A stretch of DNA of 54,718 nucleotides from Desulfarculus sp. (GTDB lineage: Bacteria > Desulfobacterota > Desulfarculia > Desulfarculales > Desulfarculaceae): assembly GCA_016218705.1 (NCBI GenBank), contig JACRDC010000024.1:1-54718 (forward strand), written 5' to 3'. A program made the translations under genes and the position numbers. Every line of letters starts with the position of its first letter. The first letter of the stretch is position 1. Shown here in pieces: positions 27,866 through 31,399 of the stretch. The notes under the pieces were generated by a model. The model searched no databases and was not told where the DNA came from. It saw only the letters and a list, made by a program, of their open reading frames with translations.

Positions 27866-28297
27866 ATGAGCCTGTCGCCAAAGCAAATCACCTATCGCCT
27901 GATCGAGTTCAACGGATGTTGGCAATGCCCCCACCTGGTACCGCCCCAGTGGCCAGGCGATGAACACTATTGCAGAATGGTGTATCAGCATCTGGACCCT
28001 TCCGCCCCCCGGGACTGGGTTTTCGACTGCTGCCCTCTGCCCTCACCCGACGACTCCAGCCGCCGCTATCGTCACATAAGGGGCTGCATGGACGACTGCC
28101 CCCACTGCGAGGATCGTCCCCAGGAGCCCGAGTTGGATAACCATTGCGCGCTGACCGGCCAGGATTTCCCCAACCCTTGGTATTACGACGAAGACTACGA
28201 TACAGATATGTTGGATGATTTCTGGACCCTGCCGAATTGCCCCCTGCCAGCTACCACCGACCCGCCTTCATCCGGCATTGGCTGGGATTGCTTTTAA
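27866..28297 (+). CDS. Cysteine-rich small protein, unknown
   Basis: A 143-residue acidic, aromatic-rich soluble protein with 11 cysteines, including C18-x2-C21 (FNGCWQCPH), C36, adjacent C55-C56, and C74-x3-C78-x2-C81 (GCMDDCPHC). The pattern suggests one or two zinc or iron-sulfur sites. Its ATG abuts the stop of the glycosylase gene, with GGAGG inside the end of that gene, so the two are coupled. Its codon use is less GC-biased than that of its neighbours. I do not recognise a named family. Confidence 0.75.
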   Translation: MSLSPKQITYRLIEFNGCWQCPHLVPPQWPGDEHYCRMVYQHLDPSAPRDWVFDCCPLPSPDDSSRRYRHIRGCMDDCPHCEDRPQEPELDNHCALTGQDFPNPWYYDEDYDTDMLDDFWTLPNCPLPATTDPPSSGIGWDCF

Positions 28298-28429
28298 GGC
28301 CTGGCCAGCCAGTCCCTGGCAAAACCCCCACTGGCCATGCCTACCAAGAAACTGGGATTCCAGCTTGCCAAGCCGGGCATTTAAGGCATAATTGGCCAGG
28401 TTTGCAGGACTGCTTGCCCGAGGTGCCCG

Positions 28430-29350
28430 ATGGCCCCCGCCCTGGACATACGCACCCTATCCTTTGCCGCGGCGGTGATCGCGGCCATCCTCTTCGGCTA
28501 CATGAGCCATATGGAGCTCACCCGCAAGACCTACCCGGGTTTTCGGCACTGGACCCTGGCGGCCCTGGCCTCGGGGGTGGGCTCGGTACTGGTCACCCTG
28601 CGCGGCCTGGTGCCGGACCTGATCTCCATCGTCGGCGCCAATTTCCTGATAATCCTGGCCATAATGCTGGTGTTCCGGGGCATGGCCATCTTTGGCGGCC
28701 AGCGGCCCAAGACGTGGCCGGACGCCGGCCTGATGATCGCCTATATGGGGCTGGTCTGCTGGTTCACCTACGGCCCGGCCAGCGTCAACTGGCGCATCAT
28801 CGTCTTCTCGCTGTGCAACGGCTATTACGCCTTGCGCGCGGCCCGGCTGGCGGCGCGGGAGGTGGCGGGGCTGCTGCGGGCGCGCAACTGGCAGTTGATC
28901 GTCACCCTGGCCGGCATGGGGGTATTCTTTCTGCTCAGGGCCGTGCTGACCTTCCTCTGGGAGCGGCAAATTGCGGATTTGATGACCGCGGGCACCTTGC
29001 AGGCCATCACCTTCCTGGTTTCCTTCATGGCCCACATCCTCATCTTCACCGGCCTGATCTTCCTGAACATCCAACGGCTGGAGCTTGACCTGACCTCGGT
29101 TCAGGAGGAACTGAAGGTGCTGGGCGGGCTGTTGCCCATCTGCGCCCACTGCAAGCGCATCCGCGACGACAGCGGCTACTGGCACCAGGTGGAGCGCTAC
29201 ATCGCCGCCCACAGCCAGGCCGAGTTCACCCACGGCATCTGCCCGCAATGCCTGCAAGAACTCTATCCCGAGGTGGCCGGCAAGGTGCTGCCCCAGGCCG
29301 CCGATTCAGGACGCCAACCGGCCTCGGGCACATCCCCGGCTTCCGGCTGA
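28430..29350 (+). CDS. Membrane sensor-like protein with CxxC...HGICPxC tail, paralogue 1
   Basis: A 306-residue protein. About seven hydrophobic segments (to about residue 215) resemble the membrane sensor region seen in front of GGDEF domains (TRKTYPGFRHWTLAALASGV, ISIVGANFLIILAIMLVFRG), but no GGDEF, HAMP or kinase domain follows. Instead there is a short helix (QRLELDLTSVQEELKVLGG) and a compact tail with C238-x2-C241 (LPICAHCKRIRDD), then H268, C271-x2-C274 (THGICPQCLQELYPE). This tail is common at the C-terminus of kinases and response regulators in this phylum and looks like a zinc ribbon. It is a close paralogue of the next gene. ATG 28430 has a GAGGT site. Confidence 0.78.
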   Translation: MAPALDIRTLSFAAAVIAAILFGYMSHMELTRKTYPGFRHWTLAALASGVGSVLVTLRGLVPDLISIVGANFLIILAIMLVFRGMAIFGGQRPKTWPDAGLMIAYMGLVCWFTYGPASVNWRIIVFSLCNGYYALRAARLAAREVAGLLRARNWQLIVTLAGMGVFFLLRAVLTFLWERQIADLMTAGTLQAITFLVSFMAHILIFTGLIFLNIQRLELDLTSVQEELKVLGGLLPICAHCKRIRDDSGYWHQVERYIAAHSQAEFTHGICPQCLQELYPEVAGKVLPQAADSGRQPASGTSPASG

Positions 29351-29480
29351 GCACTCCGCAGCCGCCCTGGCGGCCAGCCCAGCCGCTGGCGGACGACCCA
29401 GGCCGCGCACCGCGACGATTGCCATTGACAGGGGCCGGTGGGGATTGGATGCTAGGGGCGTCAAGCCTGGGGGGACGCCC

Positions 29481-30377
29481 GTGAACGATACCGTTGACAT
29501 GCGCAGCCTGAACCTGGCCTGGTCGGCCATCGCGGTGACCTGGGTCATCCTCATGCTGTTCATGCAGCGCACCCGCAAGACCTATCCCGGCTTCGGCCAC
29601 TGGACCCTGGGCACCCTGGCCTCCTGCCTGGGCCTGTTCCTCATCGCCTCGCGGGGCCACCTGCCCTTGCTGCTGTCCTTGGTGGCCGGCAACCTGCTCC
29701 TGGTGGCGCAGGTGATGTTCTTTTACCGCGGCCTGGCCATCTTCGTGGGGCGCAGGCCCAGCCCCTGGACCGATGGGGGCCTGCTGGCCTTTTTTCTGGC
29801 CGCCTATCTGGTCCTGACCTATGCCCTTCCCAGCATCAAGTGGCGCATCATCCTTTTCTCATCGCTGTACATATACTACTTCCTGCGCTGCCTGTTGCTG
29901 GCCTGGCACCAGGTGCCCGCCCTGCTGGGCGCGCGCAACTGGCTGGTCCTCAGTGCCGTGGGCCTGATGGCCGCCTTTTACAGCCTGCGCACCCTTGGGG
30001 TCTTGCTGTGGGATTGGGGGGTGGTGGATATCCTGGCGCCCAGCCCCATGAACCTGACCGTCAACCTGGCCACCGCCTGCCTGGGCATCCTGACCCTGGC
30101 CGGCCTGATCTTCCTCAACGTGCAGCGGCTGGAGATGGACCTGCAATCAGCCCAGCGCGAGGTTGGCCTATTGGGGGGGCTCTTGCCCATCTGCGCCAAG
30201 TGCAAGCGCATCCGCGACGACGGCGGCTACTGGCACCAGGTGGAGCGGTACATAAGCGCCCACAGCGATGCCAACTTCACCCACGGCATCTGCCCGCAGT
30301 GCCTGCAAGATCTTTATCCCGAGGTGGCCGGCAAGGTGCTGCCCCAAGCCACCACCCCGGAGACCCGCCAGGACTAG
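29481..30377 (+). CDS. Membrane sensor-like protein with CxxC...HGICPxC tail, paralogue 2
   Basis: A 298-residue paralogue of the gene 130 bp upstream, with the same order: membrane region with TRKTYPGFGHWTLGTLAS, helix (QRLEMDLQSAQREVGLLGG), tail (LPICAKCKRIRDDGGYWHQV...THGICPQCLQDLYPE). The two genes are most alike at the DNA level in the tail (long identical stretches), less so in the membrane part, as expected for a tail under constraint or gene conversion. GTG 29481 is chosen (GGGGGGA upstream); ATG 29499 is possible. The stop overlaps the convergent stop of the MetE-like gene in a shared CTAG. Confidence 0.77.
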   Translation: MNDTVDMRSLNLAWSAIAVTWVILMLFMQRTRKTYPGFGHWTLGTLASCLGLFLIASRGHLPLLLSLVAGNLLLVAQVMFFYRGLAIFVGRRPSPWTDGGLLAFFLAAYLVLTYALPSIKWRIILFSSLYIYYFLRCLLLAWHQVPALLGARNWLVLSAVGLMAAFYSLRTLGVLLWDWGVVDILAPSPMNLTVNLATACLGILTLAGLIFLNVQRLEMDLQSAQREVGLLGGLLPICAKCKRIRDDGGYWHQVERYISAHSDANFTHGICPQCLQDLYPEVAGKVLPQATTPETRQD

Positions 30378-31399
30378 AGCCCCAAAAGCTCCGCCCGCAG
30401 GTCCCTGGACAGCCGGTTGACCGCCGCCAAGGCCGCCTCCACGGTGCGCTCGCCGTCGGGGTTAATGAGGCAGCAGGTGGCCGGCGACAGCAGCGAGCGC
30501 GACAGCAAAAAGCCGCGGTCAATGCCGGCCTTGTCCAGGGTGTTCCAAAGGTTTATAAGGCGGGCGCTCAGCTCGGGCAGGCCCTGCTTGGCGAAGTTCT
30601 CGGTCTGGGTGGGGATCATGCCCCAGATGATGACCCCGCCCCGGTCCAGAAAACGCCGGATGCTCTTTACGTAAGAGACGAAGCGCTCGCCGTTGGAGTA
30701 CATGTCCAGGCTCAAGACCTCCAGGTCCAGGCCCAGCAAAAAGTCCCAGTCCGGGTTGCCGCACAGGTGCACCCCCCGGGGCCGCTCGATGTAGGAAAAG
30801 AACGTCTCCAGGTCGCGCCGGGCCGCCGCCTCGCCATAGCCGCTCACCCCGCTGAACACGAACTGCAAGCCTGGCTCGTCCACGAACATGAAGGCATTTT
30901 CATTCATCTGCTTGAGCCTTCTGAGCTGGGTGTTGACCCGCTGGGCCATGAACTCCAGCATGAAGGGCCGCACGTTGTCGTCGAAGATGATGGGCCGGTC
31001 GTCCTGGTCCTTGACGTTGAAGCCGAAGCTGATGGGTCCCTCCAACTGCCCGCGTATGGCCGGGCGGTCCTTGAGGTCCAGCTTGAGGAACTGATGGTAC
31101 ACCGCCGAGTAGGTGGGGCTGATGTCGAAGTACTCGGGCTCGGCCATGTGGGCATAAGCCTCTTCCAACTCGGCCAGGAATTTGTCGTAGGAAAAGCTCA
31201 GGCGCTGGTTCTCCATGTCCAGCACCGCCCCGGGGAAGTGCTCCGAGGCCTGCACGTACATGTCCTCGTAGTAGTTGAGCCGCGGCAGTTGGGGCCAGAA
31301 GGGGATGTCCAGGCTCAGGGCGGCCTTGAGCGCCCGGTCCACGTCCTGGTGGGGCATGACCGCCATGGCGGTGGTGAGCAGGTTGCCGGGTAGGGGCAC
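30374..31399 (-). CDS. Short MetE-like (UROD/MetE superfamily) protein, candidate core methionine synthase
   Basis: A 341-residue single TIM-barrel protein resembling only the C-terminal catalytic half of cobalamin-independent methionine synthase. Candidate catalytic features: FVDEPGLQF (cf. the DEPALRE motif of MetE), the zinc-site motif H211-x-C213 (HLCGNPDW), and C309/C310 near the end (SPATCCLINPDG), matching the last MetE zinc cysteine. The N-terminal folate-binding half is absent. 'Core' MetE enzymes in anaerobes accept methyl from corrinoid proteins instead of folate, which would fit this lifestyle; another thiol methyltransferase is equally possible. GTG 31399 follows GAGGAG. The stop overlaps the convergent gene by 4 nt. 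Confidence 0.72.
   Translation of the reverse strand: MPLPGNLLTTAMAVMPHQDVDRALKAALSLDIPFWPQLPRLNYYEDMYVQASEHFPGAVLDMENQRLSFSYDKFLAELEEAYAHMAEPEYFDISPTYSAVYHQFLKLDLKDRPAIRGQLEGPISFGFNVKDQDDRPIIFDDNVRPFMLEFMAQRVNTQLRRLKQMNENAFMFVDEPGLQFVFSGVSGYGEAAARRDLETFFSYIERPRGVHLCGNPDWDFLLGLDLEVLSLDMYSNGERFVSYVKSIRRFLDRGGVIIWGMIPTQTENFAKQGLPELSARLINLWNTLDKAGIDRGFLLSRSLLSPATCCLINPDGERTVEAALAAVNRLSRDLRAELLGL

Follow-up and report, generated by a model that had tools for sequence, protein, structure and literature searches.

The window, i.e. the whole stretch of 54,718 nucleotides of Desulfarculus sp. DNA analysed here, carries two tandem paralogous genes on the plus strand, gene a and gene b. Gene a (28430..29350; ATG at 28430, 306 aa) encodes a multi-TM sensor region with the motif RKTYPGF (28430..29062), a short coiled-coil-like linker, QRLELDLTSVQEELKVLGG (29066..29125), and a four-Cys tail (29120..29296; Cys codons at 29141, 29150, 29240 and 29249, invariant His at 29231). 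The linker corresponds to helix 2-19 of the tail model described below and to a consensus found before the tail in relatives, LxxxLxxALxxVKxLSG. The membrane region of gene a has about seven helices in a low-confidence model and five to six by a conservative hydropathy cut; the model, a single-sequence AlphaFold2 prediction of the whole protein, was poor (pLDDT 50) and served for the helix count only. Gene b (29481..30377, 298 aa from GTG 29481) has the same plan, with a membrane region that shares the RKTYPGF motif (29499..30116) and a tail at 30171..30347 (Cys codons at 30192, 30201, 30291 and 30300, His at 30282). Thus the first-pass annotation of the locus, which had described two tandem membrane paralogues with a CxxC...HGICPxC tail, placed both ORFs correctly.

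A sigma-70-like element, TTGCCA-N16-CATAAT, lies upstream of gene a (28365..28392, plus strand; 10/12 matches, one found vs 0.3 expected). Upstream of gene b a promoter-like TTGACA-N17-GATGCT (29425..29453, plus strand) occurs with equal spacing in both congeners, a pattern read by eye in the three intergenic gaps and absent from the list of the promoter scan. GTG 29481 is most likely the start of gene b, because the orthologues begin close to this position and the alternative TTG 29445 overlaps this conserved promoter-like element; a further alternative is ATG 29499. Just upstream of gene a, at 27866-28297 (plus strand), lies a gene for a 143-aa Cys-rich protein which belongs to no Pfam family; homologues are absent from the syntenic loci of both congeners and from all other fetched loci. 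On the other side, a 341-aa protein without Pfam match (30374-31399, minus strand) overlaps the gene b stop tail-to-tail.

Proteins a and b are 51% identical overall. This identity is unevenly distributed: the membrane parts share 41% of their amino acids and 59% of their nucleotides, the tails 89% and 91%. Neither protein matches a Pfam or NCBIfam family above cut-off. By Pfam, both are without HisKA/HATPase and without a GGDEF domain after the membrane region, and the tail is the only module of the predicted cytoplasmic part. The initial claim that the pair contains no kinase, cyclase or DNA-binding domain therefore agrees with the negative Pfam and NCBIfam searches.

In the pair, the tail reads L-GGLLPICAxCKRIRDDxGYWHQVERYIxAHSxAxFTHGICPQCLQxLYPEVAGKVLP. 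It is about 55 residues long, and its spacing C-x2-C-x29-C-x2-C is almost invariant: both CxxC pairs are present in 184 of 185 distinct tail proteins, and the x29 spacing in 181. Around the cysteines, P, I, K, R, G, W, E, F, H and P reach 96-100% conservation, among them the His that precedes the third Cys by three residues (100%), W and R (98% each) and E (97%). These values come from an alignment of 177 sequences anchored on the Cys pattern, in which the Cys values are given by construction. Between 80%-clusters the tails average 60% identity, and their mean net charge is about -1.2. The strong conservation of R, W, E and H points to a binding interface formed by the non-Cys residues of the tail.

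In the 185 proteins the tail stands at the C-terminus or close to it, followed by a median of 6 residues. The only exceptions are three REC(-GAF)-tail proteins from Anaerolineae (L061:4026-5351, L093:4545-5348 and L161:1015-1851), in which about 60 residues follow. In the two of them that were tested, L061 and L093, the extra residues are winged-helix-like, below the Pfam cut-offs.

An AlphaFold2 model of the tail, based on 85 sequences, is compact with a mean pLDDT of 78.8. It consists of a coil helix, a strand leading to the first Cys, two short strands, a short helix, the strand with the His and a helix starting from the second CxxC; the first CxxC lies at a beta turn, the second at the helix start. 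In this model the tail may be read as a treble-clef-like zinc site. Thus of the zinc-ribbon-like tail proposed at first, the compact four-Cys module is upheld by the prediction, but the ribbon label fits less well than a treble-clef-like one. Foldseek and VIA-align with the tail model returned nothing significant from the PDB (weak top rows Nmd3, Z <=3.0), and the tail profile found no relative among PDB sequences (best E 0.089). Neither Pfam nor NCBIfam has a model for the tail. A literature search for the tail motif and for zinc-type regulator outputs yielded nothing relevant; the coverage of literature and family libraries was incomplete and the domain may be named elsewhere.

The tail is not a chance pattern, because the source genome holds 12 copies, 88 of 198 sampled genomes of the phylum contain it, and at least 581 matches were confirmed across GTDB species genomes. 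The best 80 of these come from Desulfobacterota/Deltaproteobacteria, Nitrospirae, Nitrospinae, Acidobacteria, Chloroflexi, Spirochaetes, Ignavibacteriae, Neomarinimicrobiota, Verrucomicrobia, KSB1, WOR-3, Riflebacteria, Calditrichaeota, Cloacimonadota, Bacteroidetes and others. A restriction of the tail to this phylum is not supported, since it is found in many phylum-level groups. A single genome contains up to 39 tails, and the complete chromosome of Desulfosarcina widdelii 22. The searched plasmid records gave one match and the phage records none. In a Desulfarculus MAG (L042), a related tail gene is located close to the same fusA gene, in line with a Desulfarculaceae-like source of the window, and other adjacent pairs or runs of tail genes occur beyond the window's genus (L107, L066, L227, L144). 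Two small proteins were also seen: one of 143 aa from a Candidatus Anammoxibacter MAG, in which the tail directly follows a FeoA domain (L223:4029-4457), and a 65-aa ORF with little beyond the tail (L079:3471-3665), possibly a stand-alone tail or a gene fragment.

Which domains precede the tail was surveyed in the 185 distinct proteins, which stem from many phylum-level groups and are weighted towards window-like tails. PAS, REC, GAF, Cache, HAMP, MASE3/MASE6, Tll0287 or other sensor regions were found. In the source genome, the tails follow MASE3 with PAS, Tll0287, a phosphonate-binding-type periplasmic domain, PAS pairs and unnamed membrane regions. The first reading of the locus had the tail at the end of many kinases. 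This was not borne out: in a search with home-made profiles (18 kinase and 4 GGDEF seeds), none of the 185 proteins contained a histidine-kinase ATPase domain and none a GGDEF domain, though the locus edge truncates some long tail proteins, in which a kinase further upstream could have escaped notice. Likewise, no output family is among the 25 commonest families listed in the Pfam tallies of the tail proteins.

The RKTYPGF-type membrane sensor region, for which no Pfam model exists, is found with different C-terminal parts. It is followed by PAS and tail in a sister genus, by the tail alone in the window, and by a canonical GGDEF domain (E 2e-42) in a paralogous protein of the source genome (L125:1504-2682). 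Hence the tail takes the place of an output domain. The GGDEF domain behind the same membrane region also suggests that the tail lies on the cytoplasmic side.

Response regulators account for 48 of the 185 tail proteins. In these the phospho-accepting Asp is invariant, and the acidic Asp and the Lys are at least 90% conserved. Their complete Pfam list comprises REC, PAS, GAF and families that are input-type or overlapping, without any output domain. In these 48 relatives of the window proteins, which themselves have no REC, the tail is thus the only domain behind an intact REC that is not an input. A kinase gene was found within two ORFs of 12 of the 30 REC-tail genes with enough flank, compared to 9 of 82 REC-less tail genes (Fisher p 0.0017). 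Apart from two-component genes, no recurring neighbour family and no partner gene was found beside tail genes. The suggestion that the tail may itself be the output is thus strengthened from two sides, by the GGDEF domain of the membrane paralogue and by the tails that stand alone behind intact REC domains.

The pair is present in two congeners (G206, G209) with near-equal lengths and close spacing. The flanks in G209 are as in the window, with a DNA glycosylase on one side and a minus-strand gene, the 341-aa protein mentioned above, and a flavin oxidoreductase on the other. These loci leave no room for a lost domain and contain neither a remnant of an output domain nor a frameshift. The loss of an adjacent output gene, which had been named as the observation that would speak against the output function, was therefore rejected. 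The dN/dS of the tail is low, and the pair is intact in three congeneric genomes.

As noted at the outset, the tails are nearly identical in DNA and the membrane parts are not. Between a and b, the dS of the tail is 0.15, compared to 0.16-0.26 for orthologous tails; for the membrane part it is 0.73 vs 0.20-0.33. The membrane parts strongly follow orthology, whereas the best of the compared tail trees clusters a and b by lineage and is 8.1 lnL ahead of the orthology tree. The tails comprise only 55 codons, however, and the AU test does not reject their orthology (p 0.124); the number of four-fold sites is small as well (19/22 vs 34/51, p 0.10). Gene conversion between a and b, limited to the tails, is thus suggested by the sequences.

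A possible interpretation, and in our opinion a fairly probable one, is that the tail is a small autonomous zinc-binding module of treble-clef-like fold which forms the C-terminal output of one-component sensors and response regulators and docks on a conserved partner. The input would come from the membrane sensor in the window and from PAS, GAF, Cache or a phosphorylated REC in other proteins; it would alter the register or the dimer state of the short coiled coil directly preceding LSGLLPIC. This change would expose or reorient the zinc-stabilised tail, whose invariant non-Cys residues (K/R, W, E-x-Y, H, S/T-H) could then dock onto the partner. As no partner gene recurs beside the tails, the target would have to be encoded elsewhere. 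In the window, two paralogous membrane sensors would feed their tails at the cytoplasmic face of the membrane. That R, W, E-x-Y and H hardly vary across many phyla and among the many paralogues of a genome suggests a single shared and slowly evolving target in place of numerous private ones. A wider claim, which we regard as conceivable rather than probable, is that of a general undescribed output domain by which one zinc finger on many sensors per cell, in many phyla, addresses one conserved cellular target; these bacteria would then have a further common output route beside phosphotransfer and cyclic dinucleotides.

The four Cys and the invariant His would also suit a metal- or redox-sensing input switch, whose CxxC pairs release zinc or become disulfide-bonded while a separate kinase signals in trans. 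Many hosts of the tail are anaerobes, and the fusion with FeoA exists. Yet a pure Cys sensor needs no near-invariant R, W, E, Y and F, and the REC-less tail proteins show no marked association with kinase genes (the 9 of 82 given above). Moreover, the tail always stands behind other sensors with nothing after it and as a sensor would have no readout. We therefore consider this explanation unlikely.

Somewhat less likely still is a transcriptional output, with the tail as a nucleic-acid-binding zinc finger. DNA binding is the commonest output of response regulators; the tail weakly resembles zf-C4pol, and the REC-tail-winged-helix-like fusions of the Anaerolineae fit such a function. The negative mean charge of the tail speaks against it, however, as does the position of many tails, including the two in the window, near the membrane; and many paralogues per genome should diversify their recognition residues, whereas the tails average 60% identity. 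This same identity, held across many phyla, is hard to explain if the tail were a structural cap for dimerisation or stability without any signalling and the proteins inactive remnants that have lost their former output domain. The small size of the tail and its several copies per genome would allow for this. However, the pair is intact in three congeneric genomes with low tail dN/dS, and the syntenic loci show no trace of a former output domain, so that the cap is to be regarded as very improbable.

The tail is thus probably an undescribed output part of bacterial signaling. If it is a shared output, many proteins that are now named by their input domain alone, as a PAS or REC 'sensor' or a 'response regulator', would gain an identifiable common mechanism, and it would be accounted for why many sensors and regulators in these genomes seem to have no output domain. 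Sulfate reducers, Geothrix, relatives of anammox bacteria, Anaerolineae, Spirochaetes and others would be concerned.

The model of the tail resembles treble-clef zinc fingers in the order of its elements, i.e. a hairpin with CxxC, strands, and CxxC at a helix start; the relation is one of topology, drawn from secondary structure only and with no significant structural match. To zf-C4pol (PF14260), the C4 zinc finger of DNA polymerase delta, there is a weak sub-threshold likeness over the CxxC...CxxC span, which 43 of 85 tails show at a lax E-value limit of 5. Scores are 14.1-17.4 bits and do not reach the cut-off of 28.9 (the window's tail scores 17.4); no polymerase is involved, and the W/E-x-Y/H pattern of the tail is absent from zf-C4pol. 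With regulators and sensors of known output (REC-GGDEF, PAS-HK, MASE3/Tll0287/Cache-HK) the tail proteins have the input domains, the coil linker and the C-terminal position of the output in common. Where those proteins have a kinase, cyclase or HTH, however, the tail proteins have a four-Cys module of about 55 residues without known family. The CZB domain of DgcZ and of chemoreceptors (PMC8846402) provides a zinc site on a signaling protein, as is predicted for the tail. Yet CZB is a helical bundle with three His and one Cys and acts as an input domain (PMC8846402), whereas the tail carries the CxxC/CxxC arrangement and stands at the C-terminus.
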